Assembly: GCF_025869345.1 (NCBI RefSeq)
Contig: NZ_JAOZVW010000040.1
Coordinates: forward strand, 1 to 64,000
Reading direction: 5' to 3'
DNA length: 64,000 bases
Source of the DNA: Sphingopyxis sp.
GTDB lineage: Bacteria; Pseudomonadota; Alphaproteobacteria; Sphingomonadales; Sphingomonadaceae
The notes under the pieces were generated by a model. It was not told the DNA's origin. It was given only the letters and a program-made list of their open reading frames with translations, and ran no database searches. Below are positions 48,324 to 54,721 of the stretch, piece after piece. A program made the translations under genes and the position numbers. Position 1 is the first letter of the stretch, and the number at the start of each line of letters is the position of its first letter.

Positions 48324-48689
48324 TCAGAGTATGTAGGGGACACGGATGCCCGGCATATTGGCTGGGAAATCCTTGGTATTGCGTGTAATCAGGATCGCCC
48401 CGTTCACTTGCGCAGTGGCGAGGATATAGGCGTCCATCAGCTTCATCCGGGACCGAAAGCGGATATCGGCGGCCGCCAGTGAAATTCTGGGGTCGATTTC
48501 CACCACCTCGAATGGCGCGATCAACTGCTTGATCACGTCACGCTTTTCGAGCGGTTCGCCGGCCAGAATTTCCGTCCACACGATCCGGCTGATCCGGTGA
48601 CGCCTGTAGCGGGAAATCTCGGCGATGGCAGGGGCTCTATCCCACAACCAGTCGATCAGGATATTTGTATCGAAAAAGGGGTCCGACAC
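48324..48689 (-). CDS. vapC: PIN-domain toxin, VapC type
   Basis: A 121-residue PIN ribonuclease. The acidic residues that bind metal are D7 in FFDTNILIDW, E in WTEILAGEP, D in KLMDAYILATA and a final D in RNTKDFP. The partner antitoxin gene lies directly upstream with a 3-base gap. The GTG start is right after the antitoxin stop. VapC toxins cleave tRNA or rRNA when the antitoxin is degraded. Confidence 0.94.
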   Translation of the reverse strand: MSDPFFDTNILIDWLWDRAPAIAEISRYRRHRISRIVWTEILAGEPLEKRDVIKQLIAPFEVVEIDPRISLAAADIRFRSRMKLMDAYILATAQVNGAILITRNTKDFPANMPGIRVPYIL

Positions 48690-48692
48690 CGC

Positions 48693-48938
48693 TCAGATAT
48701 CTTCGTATGGGCGGCGATCTTCGCGCATGGCGCGCTGATATTCGACGGCATCGCCAATATCGTCGCGCCCCTTCCAATAGCCCGCCCCCCGCATGATCCA
48801 GTCCTTGCTGTTGTCGTTCTGAGCGAGATACAGCTTCACCGCATCGCGGATCGCCGCCGCGCGCGAGCGCTTGGACTTCGCCGCCAGCGCGTCGAGCTTT
48901 TCGATGTCCTCGTCGGGAATGTCGGTCAGGATTCGCAT
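48693..48938 (-). CDS. Ribbon-helix-helix antitoxin, VapB-like
   Basis: An 81-residue protein. The N-terminal RILTDIPDEDIEKLDALAAK with SRAAAIRDAVKLYLAQ is a CopG/MetJ-type ribbon-helix-helix DNA-binding domain. The C-terminal tail (WKGRDDIGDAVEYQRAMRED) should wrap and inhibit the toxin. The start was set at MRILTDIP; an ATG six codons earlier lies in the operator palindrome. It probably represses its own operon through that palindrome. Confidence 0.88.
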   Translation of the reverse strand: MRILTDIPDEDIEKLDALAAKSKRSRAAAIRDAVKLYLAQNDNSKDWIMRGAGYWKGRDDIGDAVEYQRAMREDRRPYEDI

Positions 48939-48947
48939 TTGATATAC

Positions 48948-48968
48948 TGATATCATATCATGATATCA
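48948..48968. promoter_or_regulatory. Operator palindrome of the toxin-antitoxin pair
   Basis: Arms TGATATCAT and ATGATATCA with the centre ATC. It lies 10 bases before the antitoxin start in a markedly AT-rich patch. Ribbon-helix-helix antitoxins usually bind such dyads at their own promoter. Confidence 0.8.
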
Positions 48969-51150: not shown

Positions 51151-51831
51151 ATGCCGACCGATATGAGCGATTTCCCCTTCCGCGTCGTCGGCTTCGACCT
51201 TGACGGCACCCTCGTCGACACCGCCGCCGACCTGACCGCCGCCGTGAACCATGCCCTGTCGCTGATCGACCGCGCGCCGCTGAGCGAAGCCGAGGTCCGG
51301 CCGATGATCGGGCTCGGCGCGAAGCATATGCTCGAACAGGGGCTCCGCGCGACCGGCGGCGCGGAGGAGGGTGTCGTCGAGCGGCTCTATCCCGATCTGC
51401 TGCGCCATTATGAAGCGCATATCGCCGTGCACAGCCGGCCTTTTCCCGGCCTGACCGCCGCGCTCGACCGGCTCGACGCACTCGGCGTCCGCACCGCGGT
51501 CGCGACCAACAAAGCCGAGGGGATGGCGCGAAAGCTGCTCGGCGAGTTGGGTCTCGCCGACCGCATGGCGGCGATTATCGGCGGTGACACGCTGGGGCCC
51601 GGCAACCGCAAGCCCTCCCCCGCCCCGATCCTGGCGATGATCGCGCAGAGCGGCGGCGGCCGCACCGCCTTCGTCGGCGACAGCATCTACGACGTCATGG
51701 CGGCGCGCGCCGCGGCGACGCCGAGCATCGTCGTCGGCTTCGGCTTCCTCGACCGGCCGGCCGAGGAGCTGGGCGCCGATCATGTCATCGACCATTATGA
51801 CGAACTGGTGCCGCTGCTCGCGGGGCTTTAG
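51151..51831 (+). CDS. gph: Phosphoglycolate phosphatase
   Basis: A 226-residue HAD phosphatase. Motif I VGFDLDGTLVDTAADLTAAVN, motif II AVATNKAEGMA, motif III lysine in NRKPSPAPI, motif IV FVGDSIYDVMAARAA. The DTAADLTAA segment after motif I is usual in Gph. It removes phosphate from 2-phosphoglycolate arising from DNA repair or oxygenation. The start may be this ATG or one four codons later; neither has a clear ribosome-binding site. Confidence 0.9.
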   Translation: MPTDMSDFPFRVVGFDLDGTLVDTAADLTAAVNHALSLIDRAPLSEAEVRPMIGLGAKHMLEQGLRATGGAEEGVVERLYPDLLRHYEAHIAVHSRPFPGLTAALDRLDALGVRTAVATNKAEGMARKLLGELGLADRMAAIIGGDTLGPGNRKPSPAPILAMIAQSGGGRTAFVGDSIYDVMAARAAATPSIVVGFGFLDRPAEELGADHVIDHYDELVPLLAGL

Positions 51832-51840
51832 AGCCAGGAT

Positions 51841-51922
51841 CGTCATTGCGAGCGAAGCGAAGCAATCCAGAGCGGTTTACACTACTCTGGATTGCCGCGT
51901 CGCTTCGCTCCTCGCAATGACG
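51841..51922. repeat. Palindromic intergenic repeat, family B
   Basis: Starts CGTCATTGCGAGCGAAGCGA nine bases after the gph stop and ends CTCCTCGCAATGACG. It contains AAGCAATCCAGAGCGGTTTA and CTCTGGATTGCCGCG. It lies between the convergent gph and nucleotidyltransferase genes. Confidence 0.93.
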
Positions 51923-51942
51923 ATTCTTGCTCGCGTCCGATT

Positions 51943-52956
51943 TCAACGCTTCCGCCACTTGGTCCACAAATGCCGCGACAGCATCAGCGGCGGCATCCGC
52001 AGCCAGTGCGAACGGATGTAGAAGGCCTGCTGGAGCGCGAAATGCGTCGCATGGCCCCAATCGTCGCGCGCGAGCAGGCGGCGCTTGAACCATAGGTCGG
52101 CGGGGTCGTGCCTGTCCCATCCCGAAGGCAGCGCCGAACCGTAAAGGTCGCGCGCCAGCCTCGCCGCCCGATGCACCGGCGCGTGGAGGCCGTGCCGGTC
52201 GGCGCGGGCATCGAGCTTGCCCCAGAAACCGGGATCGGCCGCGGCGAAATCGCGCGTCAGGGAATGAAAATCCCACAAATTGCGAAGCCCGCCCTGCAGA
52301 TCGCCATCGGCGAGCAGATGCGCGGCGCAGTGACAGGCCATGTCGGTCGGGCACAGCACCGCAAAGCCGTTTTCGGTCGTCACCGCATCGCTGACGAGCG
52401 ACAGGGCATCGGGCGCGATGCGGTGGGTCTGGGGCAGAATCGTGTGATGCACGTCGATCATCCGGTCGCGCGCCTTGTGGATCAGCGGCGGCAGTTCGTG
52501 CATATGCTCGCGGTAATAGGCGTCGTCATAGGGGTCGGACTTGACCCACTCCCACCCCGCCTCGAGCAGTTCATTCTCGGCGCGGCCGATGTCGCTGACG
52601 AGGACGAGAATGTCGAGGTCGCCGATCTGCCGCCCCTCAGCGCAGGAGAGGCCTGCGGCGGCATAGGCGGTGCCTTTGAGCAGCACGAACTCGATCCGCT
52701 CGCTCGCCAGCGCGCGGCGCGCCATTTCGGCTTCCCACATGGATTGGGCCTGCGCGACCGCCGCCGCCGCGCGCTGATCGGCGAACAACGCGGCGACGGC
52801 AGGCGGCAGCGCCGCACCTTCGAGCCGGTGCGCGAGCGTCGCCAGCATCGCCTCGGCGCGCGCGACCGAGATCACGCCATCCCATTCGCGCGGCGCCAGC
52901 GCCGCCGCCTCGCGCCGCCCGGCGAGCAGATCGACGAGGGTGCGGATGGCGCTCAC
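51943..52956 (-). CDS. Nucleotidyltransferase family protein (NTP_transf_5-like)
   Basis: A 337-residue protein of the NTP_transf_5 family. The nucleotidyltransferase core has VLLKGTAYAAAG and the metal-binding GRQIGDLDILVLV with the D-x-D pair; further acidic residues follow near YDDAYYREH. The C-terminal third is helical. The GTG start overlaps the stop of the kinase-like gene (GTGA). In other proteobacteria such proteins accompany HprK-related kinases and PqqD-like proteins, as here. Its substrate is unknown. Confidence 0.88.
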   Translation of the reverse strand: MSAIRTLVDLLAGRREAAALAPREWDGVISVARAEAMLATLAHRLEGAALPPAVAALFADQRAAAAVAQAQSMWEAEMARRALASERIEFVLLKGTAYAAAGLSCAEGRQIGDLDILVLVSDIGRAENELLEAGWEWVKSDPYDDAYYREHMHELPPLIHKARDRMIDVHHTILPQTHRIAPDALSLVSDAVTTENGFAVLCPTDMACHCAAHLLADGDLQGGLRNLWDFHSLTRDFAAADPGFWGKLDARADRHGLHAPVHRAARLARDLYGSALPSGWDRHDPADLWFKRRLLARDDWGHATHFALQQAFYIRSHWLRMPPLMLSRHLWTKWRKR

Positions 52957-53819
52957 CGGACCGCCTCGGCGAAAAGCTGCTCGACCAGCGCCAGGCCGGT
53001 CGTGCTGTCGGGGTAGGAGATGCCAAACGCCGGCGTCTCGCGCACCAGCCGCGTCAGCGCGGCAAAACCCGGTTCGCCGAGCGCGACATAGTTGGTCGAG
53101 GCTTCGGTCAGGCGCACGAAGGCCTCGCCCTCGCCCATCGGCTCGATCGCCGCTTCGCCGCCGAAGCGCGGAAAGAGCAGCAGCGCCGGGCGCGCGGGCT
53201 CGTGCATCGCGGCGATGGCGTCGGCGCGCGGGATCAGGTGGCGGATGTCGCCCTTCGGCGTTCCCGCCAGCAAGGGGCCAAGGCGTGCGGTATCGACCCG
53301 CGCCGCAACCTCGGCGATCGCCGCATTCTTGAGGCTGACCGCGCGCGGGAACGCCAGCGCGTCGCCGCCCGCCGGGTCGATCAGCGTGAATTCGTCGCCC
53401 ATCAGCCGCCAGCCATCCTCGCCGAGCAGCGCCGCCAGCGTCGACTTGCCCGATCCCGACTCGCCCGACATGATGACGGCGCGTCCGTCGCGCGCGACCG
53501 CGCTCGCGTGAAGCAGCAGATGCCGCCGCCAGCCGAGCGCAACCTGCAAATTCATCCCCATCTCGGCGGCGAGCAGCCCCATCGACAGCGGCAGCGGCAA
53601 CGCATCGGGAATCACGAAATCGCCGCCGATCTGCACCGAGGGGCGCAGCCAGCGCCGCCACGGGCGCGCCGCGAACAGCCGCACGGTCGCGTCGGCGGGA
53701 CGGGTATCGTCCCGCGGATAGCCCGCATAGAGCCGGTCGAGCACCGCGACCGGCGCGCGCCAGTCGCTGCCGATGCGAAACTGGACCGGACCGACCGCGA
53801 TGCGCGTGCTGTGCCTCAC
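52953..53819 (-). CDS. HprK-related kinase A
   Basis: A 288-residue protein with the core of HPr kinase. The P-loop is GESGSGKST (residues 119-127), preceded by LLLHASAVARDG, with GDEFTLID at the place of the second motif. The second half has alternating strands and helices and no HPr partner is encoded nearby. It resembles the family named HprK-related kinase A in the HPr-rel-A system. The start is a GTG that overlaps the PqqD-like stop. Whether it phosphorylates a protein is unproven. Confidence 0.88.
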   Translation of the reverse strand: MRHSTRIAVGPVQFRIGSDWRAPVAVLDRLYAGYPRDDTRPADATVRLFAARPWRRWLRPSVQIGGDFVIPDALPLPLSMGLLAAEMGMNLQVALGWRRHLLLHASAVARDGRAVIMSGESGSGKSTLAALLGEDGWRLMGDEFTLIDPAGGDALAFPRAVSLKNAAIAEVAARVDTARLGPLLAGTPKGDIRHLIPRADAIAAMHEPARPALLLFPRFGGEAAIEPMGEGEAFVRLTEASTNYVALGEPGFAALTRLVRETPAFGISYPDSTTGLALVEQLFAEAVR

Positions 53820-54097
53820 GCCTCCGCCACCAGCCCCATCGCGGCGAGTTCGGCCAGCCGCTCGGCAATCAGCGGCATCGGATCGCCCTCGCCGCCGAGG
53901 TCGAAGCGCGCCGCCAGCCGCTCGGCAACCGTCGCCGCGTTGCAGCGATCATCCGCCATCGCGGCCAATATTTCGGGCATCGGCTGGATCATCAGGTGCG
54001 TCTGCATCGATCGGCGGTCGAACAGCACGGTCAGATCGCCGAGCGCCTCGATGCGCAACGTCTCCGGCGGCGCCGCGCGATAGACGCGGTCAGCCAT
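53816..54097 (-). CDS. PqqD-like protein of the HPr-rel-A system
   Basis: A 93-residue PqqD-like protein with the fold's winged-helix pattern: RIEALGDLTVLFDRRSMQTHLM, then the helix ATVAERLAARFDL and LIAERLAELAAMGLVAE. PqqD proteins bind peptide precursors (RRE domains) and deliver them to modifying enzymes. No precursor peptide or radical-SAM gene is visible nearby. It overlaps the MarR gene by 8 bases and the kinase-like gene by 4. Confidence 0.82.
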   Translation of the reverse strand: MADRVYRAAPPETLRIEALGDLTVLFDRRSMQTHLMIQPMPEILAAMADDRCNAATVAERLAARFDLGGEGDPMPLIAERLAELAAMGLVAEA

Positions 54098-54536
54098 AAT
54101 CTTCGGCGGCCGCGGTCAGTTTCGCCAGGATCGCCATCAGCGTCGCGCGCTCGGCGCCGCTGAGCTTCGATTCGAGCTGCGCCTCGCTGGCGAGCGCGGC
54201 GGGCACGATGGCGTCGTAGAGCGAGCGGCCGGTGTCGGTCAGTTCCAGATGGTGCGAGCGCCCGTCGGCCTCGTGCGCCTGGCGCGCGATGAGATGGCGG
54301 TCGGCGAGCGCCTTGGCCGCGCGGTTGACCGTCACCTTGTCCATCCGCGTCGCGGCGACGAGCTCGCGCTGCGTCTTGGGCTTGCCTTCGCCGAGCACCG
54401 CCATCAGCCGCCACTCGGGAATCTTGAGCCCGAAGCGGTTCTGATATTCGGCGGCAATCCGGCTCGATAGCGTGTTCGACGCGATCGACAGGCGGTAAGG
54501 CAGGAAATTGTCGAGATTCAGCTTTTTCGCGGCCAT
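54090..54536 (-). CDS. MarR family transcriptional regulator
   Basis: A 148-residue winged-helix regulator. The DNA-binding part is seen in IPEWRLMAVLGEGKPKTQRE and TRMDKVTVNRAAKALADRHL, with the beta wing at HEADGRSHHLELTDTG. It is the first gene of the operon and overlaps the PqqD-like gene. It may regulate the operon itself. The ATG of MAAKKLNL was chosen over GTG codons just upstream. Confidence 0.9.
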   Translation of the reverse strand: MAAKKLNLDNFLPYRLSIASNTLSSRIAAEYQNRFGLKIPEWRLMAVLGEGKPKTQRELVAATRMDKVTVNRAAKALADRHLIARQAHEADGRSHHLELTDTGRSLYDAIVPAALASEAQLESKLSGAERATLMAILAKLTAAAEDYG

Positions 54537-54609
54537 CACCTTGCACCCCACATCACCGTCGCCGTCACGCTCTTTGCGTTATCTAGAACAGGATGCCGTC
54601 TATTGGAAT

Positions 54610-54685
54610 CGTCATTGCGAGCGGAGCGAAGCAATCCAGAGCGGTTTACGCCACTCTGGATTGCTTCGCTCCGCTCGCAATGACG
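54610..54685. repeat. Palindromic intergenic repeat, family B
   Basis: A compact, more symmetrical copy of 76 bases: CGTCATTGCGAGCGGAGCGA and its inverted end match over more than 25 bases, leaving a short centre with GGTTTACGCCACT. It lies upstream of the MarR operon and downstream of the TonB receptor gene. Confidence 0.93.
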
Positions 54686-54721
54686 AAATTACCAATCGCA
54701 TTCCAATCCCGGCCGCGAAAA

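Follow-up and report, generated by a model that had tools for sequence, protein, structure and literature searches.

A small signal-bearing protein as the candidate client of the HPr-rel-A gene set in Sphingopyxis and other Pseudomonadota

Background

Two kinds of described peptide pathway come closest to the genes considered here. In the LPP system, an RRE (recognition element of ribosomally synthesized and post-translationally modified peptides, RiPPs), an HprK-like kinase and a nucleoside triphosphate (NTP) transferase are found with a linear precursor, and a single serine, residue 3 of the core, receives from one up to four phosphates from the kinase; the system is described as restricted to Bacillota (PMC13381572). 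In lasso pathways of the paeninodin/pseudomycoidin type, including that of SyanK from Sphingobium, kinases with a His-Lys-Asp-Asp set of residues phosphorylate the C-terminal Ser of the precursors, and PsmN, annotated as a nucleotidyltransferase, adds a hexose on the phosphoserine (PMC9266682). The present study concerns a gene set with similar enzymes, HPr-rel-A, in a stretch of 64,000 nucleotides from Sphingopyxis sp. (contig NZ_JAOZVW010000040.1, positions 1 to 64,000; called the window below). The set consists of genes for a PqqD-like protein, an HprK-related kinase and a nucleotidyltransferase (the trio). Comparison with related genomes points to a small protein with a signal of the twin-arginine translocation (Tat) kind as its client.

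A literature search, with most subscription journals and bioRxiv outside it, found nothing on 'HPr-rel-A', 'HprK-related kinase', the TIGR and Pfam identifiers concerned or the combination of HprK, PqqD and nucleotidyltransferase, and no title or abstract opening that describes the client.

Results

Four genes of the window form a single minus-strand run in which successive genes share 8, 4 and 4 bases; the coordinates confirm the tight one-direction arrangement given in a preliminary description of this DNA, which was made from its letters only. The features are:

54090..54536, minus strand, MarR-family regulator (PF12802, MarR_2, 48.4 bits), a lineage-specific addition outside the conserved set
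53816..54097, minus strand, PqqD-like (RRE-type) protein of the HPr-rel-A system (TIGR04353, 47.6 bits, cut-off 35), predicted to grip the client
52953..53819, minus strand, HprK-related kinase A, a predicted Ser kinase with GTG start (TIGR04352, 229.5 bits, cut-off 200)
53439..53465, minus strand, P-loop GESGSGKST, kinase residues 119-127 (from sequence and conservation)
51943..52956, minus strand, PF14907 nucleotidyltransferase with GTG start (177.7 bits, cut-off 31.2), predicted to act on the phosphorylated client
52612..52620, minus strand, D-x-D (D113, D115) of the nucleotidyltransferase (from sequence and conservation)

The earlier assignment to HPr-rel-A stands, with the kinase and the adjoining PqqD-like protein both exceeding their NCBIfam cut-offs and the nucleotidyltransferase, a further part of the HPr-rel-A definition, in the same operon. 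None of the NCBIfam models fits the client described below, and a Pfam scan of the PqqD-like protein gave no match. The window's genome has a single match to the kinase family and a single match to PF14907.

Two sets of genomes were used for comparison. The family set comprises 199 genomes, 61 of them with a kinase above the TIGR04352 cut-off, and up to 20 kb was compared around the 60 non-window loci. The phylum sample comprises 398 genomes, with 62 kinase genomes at E up to 1e-25 (61 of them over the cut-off); its 53 loci (L092-L144) include four from the same family, one from the same order and L144, which is under the cut-off. The search for short conserved genes among shared neighbours, proposed in the preliminary description, was run on these loci and returned a small protein with an RR (twin-arginine-like) signal, encoded directly upstream of the PqqD-like gene and usually by the first gene of the set. 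It is the candidate client, for short the client. Among the 61 family loci, it was recovered by gene calling in 36 and by a profile search, on the same strand and at most 1.5 kb upstream, in 56; the client of L088 lies at 1518 bases, and the window, L054, L056 and L072 are without a nearby client. In the phylum sample the profiles place a client directly upstream on the same strand in 36 of 53 loci. Among the 17 loci without such an upstream client (of type I or II, each with its own profile), the client overlaps in L098 and is on the opposite strand in L108, a type II client is on a separate contig of the same genome for L110, L111, L117 and L125, and a different signal-bearing protein (type III) occupies the client position in L092, L095, L109, L122, L132, L134 and L137. 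L144 has a small protein with KR in that position.

The client of the window's own genome (G000:C80:1682-2086) is divergent from phoR and on another contig than the trio. Because the client gene is distant from the trio in the window's genus, the window alone could not reveal it. The earlier remark that no precursor gene is near thus holds for the window's gene list, but a likely client is present elsewhere in the genome; relatives as a rule do have a precursor-like gene at the trio, and the window's genus departs from this. No Pfam or NCBIfam family was found for the scanned clients, namely 20 of type I, 14 of type II, the window genome's own, one from Sphingomonas and one from Vibrio, the last being the only scanned client among those of type III; they gave stray single library matches, with Tat models among them. 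The client gene is annotated as hypothetical in a Sphingomonas record that names the PqqD-like protein and the kinase, and also in Vibrio alfacsensis.

A kinase over the cut-off and a type I client occur in the identical 61 of the 199 family genomes, and none of the 138 other family genomes matches the type I profile among its best first-look candidates. As the profile was built from linked loci, the informative part is these 138 genomes together with the unlinked clients of G000, G042, G122 and G040, which have no adjacent client yet carry one elsewhere in the genome. In the phylum sample, a type I or II client is present in 49 of the 62 kinase genomes versus 0 of the 336 others.

In Sphingopyxis, the client gene stays beside phoR, apart from the trio. 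Among the named client loci (the best 80 of 386), 50 are of the Sphingopyxis type (L161-L210), and in all of them phoR is beside the client and no trio lies in the flank examined, which covers only 0.4 to 2.5 kb downstream in L172, L188, L189, L193, L198 and L208. The trio is directly downstream in 29 of the other 30, and L225 is at a contig edge. Kinase and client are both found in 76 of 80 Sphingopyxis genomes; the exceptions are G623 (90% complete) with the kinase only, G624 (68%) with the client only, and G653 (76%) and G657 (estimated 100%) with neither. Only in G593, G638 and G181 is the client within 1 kb of the kinase. Another kind of split is seen in G040, where client and PqqD-like gene are beside phoR and the kinase and nucleotidyltransferase are elsewhere. 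Since client and trio are retained despite these splits, the genes likely work together, and we consider the link between them, as read from gene content, well supported.

The tail of the listed clients has the form [ST]C-x-x-S-[LIF]. C-x-x-S falls in the last 32 residues in 60 of the 61 type I rows (the exception, L071, is a broken frame), in 27 of the 31 type II-profile rows and in all 80 named loci. When the profiles of types I and II were compared, the alignment took in 46 columns (probability 96.6), all of them in the signal region and the residues that immediately follow, so the parts shared by both types are the signal region and the tail. The twin-arginine RR is present in all 20 aligned type I members. 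A signal pattern picked after viewing the clients fits 84 of 92 clients and none of 25 Tat-like stretches taken from three Sphingopyxis genomes, at least one of the 25 being no real signal (L245, antisense of the window's own gene); chosen in this way, the pattern is only a hint. The comparison of the two profiles agrees with it, though any two Tat-like signals may align.

For the enzymes, the intact P-loop and D-x-D of the preliminary description are present and conserved. Kinase residues H104, G122, G124, K125, S126, T127, D142 and E143 are conserved in at least 98.5% of 113 kinases, and D113, D115 and D168 of the nucleotidyltransferase in at least 98.5% of 99 sequences, a set from which weak or missing nucleotidyltransferases were excluded; a loss of these residues among orthologues, named beforehand as a ground for rejection, was not observed. 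The kinase keeps H104, K125, D142 and E143, beside the His-Lys-Asp-Asp set described for lasso kinases. In a tree of 37 hand-chosen rows, 28 HPr-rel-A kinases lie on one side of a branch (98/98) and nine other HprK-like rows lie opposite; two of the nine are near lasso-cyclase-like genes, several branches are long, and the characterised lasso and LPP kinases are not among the rows. The AlphaFold2 model of the nucleotidyltransferase is good, with a predicted local distance difference test (pLDDT) score of 91.2 and a predicted template modelling (pTM) score of 0.90. Foldseek gave two matches with E below 0.001, both MenT1, followed by ANT(2'')-Ia (0.013), LnuA and, weakly, FKRP (0.3). These matches show a nucleotidyltransferase fold for the modelled protein, and the group transferred is not deducible from the fold. 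Searches by sequence for solved relatives of either enzyme returned only P-loop and chance matches.

The three families occur together on one strand, in the order PqqD-like, kinase and nucleotidyltransferase, in 60 of the 61 family loci; L072 has no PqqD-like gene, and the nucleotidyltransferase is downstream of the kinase in all 61. The recurrence of the set claimed earlier is therefore borne out in the window's family. In the phylum draw the trio recurs in a looser form, the PqqD-like gene preceding the kinase in 39 of 53 loci and the nucleotidyltransferase following it in 40; of the 13 loci lacking the latter, three end at most 350 bases from the kinase, and the count rule overlooks the overlapping gene of L098. 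The MarR gene had been included in the set. It occurs in three of the 61 family loci (the window, L054 and L056) and is ruled out as a conserved member.

The conserved neighbours of the family loci, named by reading their sequences, are phoR (50 of 61), pst genes, phoU, phoB, gph, glmU and glmS. One of them adjoins the trio in the window:

51151..51831, plus strand, gph-like HAD phosphatase (named from our own reading of its sequence), a conserved downstream neighbour (cluster 12, in 32 of 61 family loci)

This gene marks the ancestral position of the trio. It is followed by a glmU-like gene (cluster 7, 47 of 61 loci) and a glmS-like gene (cluster 9, 44 of 61), and the order gph, glmU, glmS near the trio is also annotated in a Sphingomonas record. 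Between glmS and glmU, the minus strand at 48324-48956 carries genes for a PIN-domain-like and a small antitoxin-like protein, as read from their translations, with homologues near glmU/glmS in 15 and 16 of the 61 loci, respectively (clusters 15 and 14). An inverted-repeat element stands on either side of the operon (51840-51925 and 54607-54690). Its core pattern occurs 92 and 104 times on the two strands of the genome with at most 3 mismatches, versus 0 for the reversed pattern, and the copies are often at contig ends among the places listed; the element resembles repetitive extragenic palindromic (REP) sequences and possibly has a role in rearrangement. The phoR/pst neighbourhood is conserved in the window's family and was not seen in other groups, and a phosphate-response role for the system is only a thought. 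With an E. coli-type consensus, no Pho box signal was obtained upstream of the client (mean 9.0 of 14 in 50 loci versus 8.58 in one shuffle each).

In other groups the recurring neighbours include XrtA-system glycosyltransferases (cluster 10, 26 of 60 loci), asparagine-synthase-like proteins (cluster 14, 23 of 60 loci; two are lasso-cyclase-like, and the representative is an XrtA amidotransferase) and a TPR-sulfotransferase. The names come from one representative per cluster, with TIGR03087, TIGR03088 and TIGR03108 above their cut-offs and Sulfotransfer_3 at 155.9 bits. The TPR protein with the Sulfotransfer_3 domain (cluster 23, for example L106 7855-9549) is found in 10 of 60 loci, where its gene either separates those of the kinase and the nucleotidyltransferase or follows that of the kinase. 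These neighbours fit additional elaboration of the client without proving it.

A second arrangement was seen in L144, L145, L146, L147 and L151. As in the window, a kinase-like gene has a small signal-like protein upstream (five of five, with RR in four and KR in L144, and Gly-rich in three) and an adjoining nucleotidyltransferase. These loci differ in being under the TIGR04352 cut-off, in having no separate PqqD-like gene that we found and in a client that lacks the tail motif. Their kinase is longer at the N-terminus, and from our reading of the sequence this added part may be an RRE; in L145 and L147 Pfam detected no such domain. In addition, the HprK-like kinases of L149 and L150 are near a lasso-cyclase-like protein (L149: NF033535, under cut-off) and an RRE-like protein in G155, a genome that also carries an HPr-rel-A set.

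Discussion

The window trio contains the LPP enzyme set, that is, a discrete RRE, an HprK-like kinase and an NTP transferase, to go with one precursor and with no cyclase needed. LPP clusters are described as encoding a SipW-like (SpI) leader peptidase and an MsbA-like exporter, together with a YxxP leader, whereas the HPr-rel-A client has a Tat-like signal and C-x-x-S. Among the conserved neighbours of the 61 family loci, neither such a peptidase nor such an exporter was seen by sequence reading (no profile search was made). The likeness to lasso pathways lies in an HprK-like kinase acting on a C-terminal Ser together with a nucleotidyltransferase. A lasso pathway was rejected because the window's genome gave no match at E 0.001 to PF13471, the B2 leader protease family; the genes listed near the trio include no macrolactam cyclase by reading (no profile search was made).

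In our judgement the trio is probably a client-specific protein-modification module, in which the small protein with the Tat-like signal would be phosphorylated on the C-x-x-S serine, the phosphate capped and the product exported. We infer the chemistry and the export route by analogy, and the scheme is carried over from the LPP (PMC13381572) and lasso (PMC9266682) enzymes. The PqqD-like protein would bind the client in the cytoplasm, perhaps via the signal peptide. The kinase would then phosphorylate the C-x-x-S serine near the client C-terminus, possibly repeatedly like related kinases, after which the PF14907 enzyme would transfer a nucleotidyl or sugar group to the phosphate, and the modified client would leave by the Tat route. 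The earlier proposal, in which the PqqD-like protein presents a target for phosphorylation by the kinase and labelling by the nucleotidyltransferase, fits this scheme and now has a specific candidate client, with the modification itself still a prediction. More tentatively, it is possible that the Tat signal doubles as the RRE leader, so that in Pseudomonadota a small exported protein would be phosphorylated on the C-x-x-S serine and capped by the nucleotidyltransferase before export.

Several observations weigh against this scheme, and some of them bear on the residue. In A5 (type I), the invariance of S48 and C52 equals that of C129 and S132, so the post-signal S48 could be the target; the shared stretch of the type I and II profiles takes in this S...C, and the LPP phosphoserine is at core residue 3. 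Exactly two Cys follow the RR in 52 of 61 type I clients, as for a disulfide pair. In most type III loci seen, C-x-x-S is just behind the signal and not at the C-terminus, with similar Cys and Ser residues in the Vibrio client, and the type II-profile rows L094, L118, L123 and L136 have no tail motif. The client might then be right and the residue a different one (the post-signal serine, a Thr or a Cys), with C-x-x-S serving a disulfide or the fold. We find this rather unlikely, as the C-terminal C-x-x-S recurs in types I and II despite middles that do not align, and the comparable lasso kinases target a C-terminal Ser. Other adverse points concern the client and its handling. No client was found for L135 and L138, and L131 runs off its contig. 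The co-occurrence statistics are uncorrected for phylogeny, and the genome searches score best first-look candidates only (up to 20 in the family set, 9 or 10 in the phylum sample), so absence is not absolute. The export route is a reading of the motif: in each of two libraries a Tat model matched one of the 20 type I members, and the client of the window's own genome matched none. The modification is a prediction; in LPP, deleting the NTP transferase gene lppN had no detectable effect (PMC13381572), and for PsmN a host glycosyltransferase remained an alternative (PMC9266682).

The same data can be read as a precursor from which a short peptide, such as the conserved tail, is cut out after modification to give a small exported peptide. 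RREs of this kind belong to RiPP pathways, the tail is well conserved with low model confidence, and PEP-CTERM-type loci have a gene of serine protease type nearby (cluster 26, found in 8 of 60 loci). The AlphaFold2 model of the client is itself poor (pLDDT 58.6), a further point against the preferred scheme, and the attempt to obtain a client fold from it was abandoned as too poor for a structure search. Its residues 61-120 nevertheless have block means of 71-84, which makes a small ordered part likely, and no peptidase or peptide exporter was seen among the conserved family neighbours as their clusters were read; we regard excision of a peptide as very improbable. The small protein may also be a partner or effector of the trio, whose target would then be a metabolite, a glycan or a carrier like HPr. 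Co-occurrence alone cannot separate target from partner, and glycosyltransferases, an XrtA amidotransferase and the TPR-sulfotransferase adjoin the trio in other groups. On the other hand, an RRE operon that opens with the gene of a small signal-bearing protein is laid out as it would be for a precursor, enzymes of these kinds act on peptides in the LPP and lasso systems, and the five distant HprK-like loci also have their upstream signal-like protein. A partner role therefore seems clearly unlikely to us, and modification of the client at C-x-x-S remains the reading we prefer.

Conclusions

With these comparisons, a gene set that is named yet unexplained now has a definite candidate for its client and a residue predicted to be modified, which makes its function testable by one mass measurement. 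If the scheme is true, the chemistry of RRE, HprK-like kinase and nucleotidyltransferase would extend from lasso peptides, including those of Sphingobium, and the LPP of Bacillota to exported proteins, and it would be tied to XrtA/PEP-CTERM loci in other groups. Client types with non-aligning middles would then share just the signal region and the C-x-x-S tetrapeptide.

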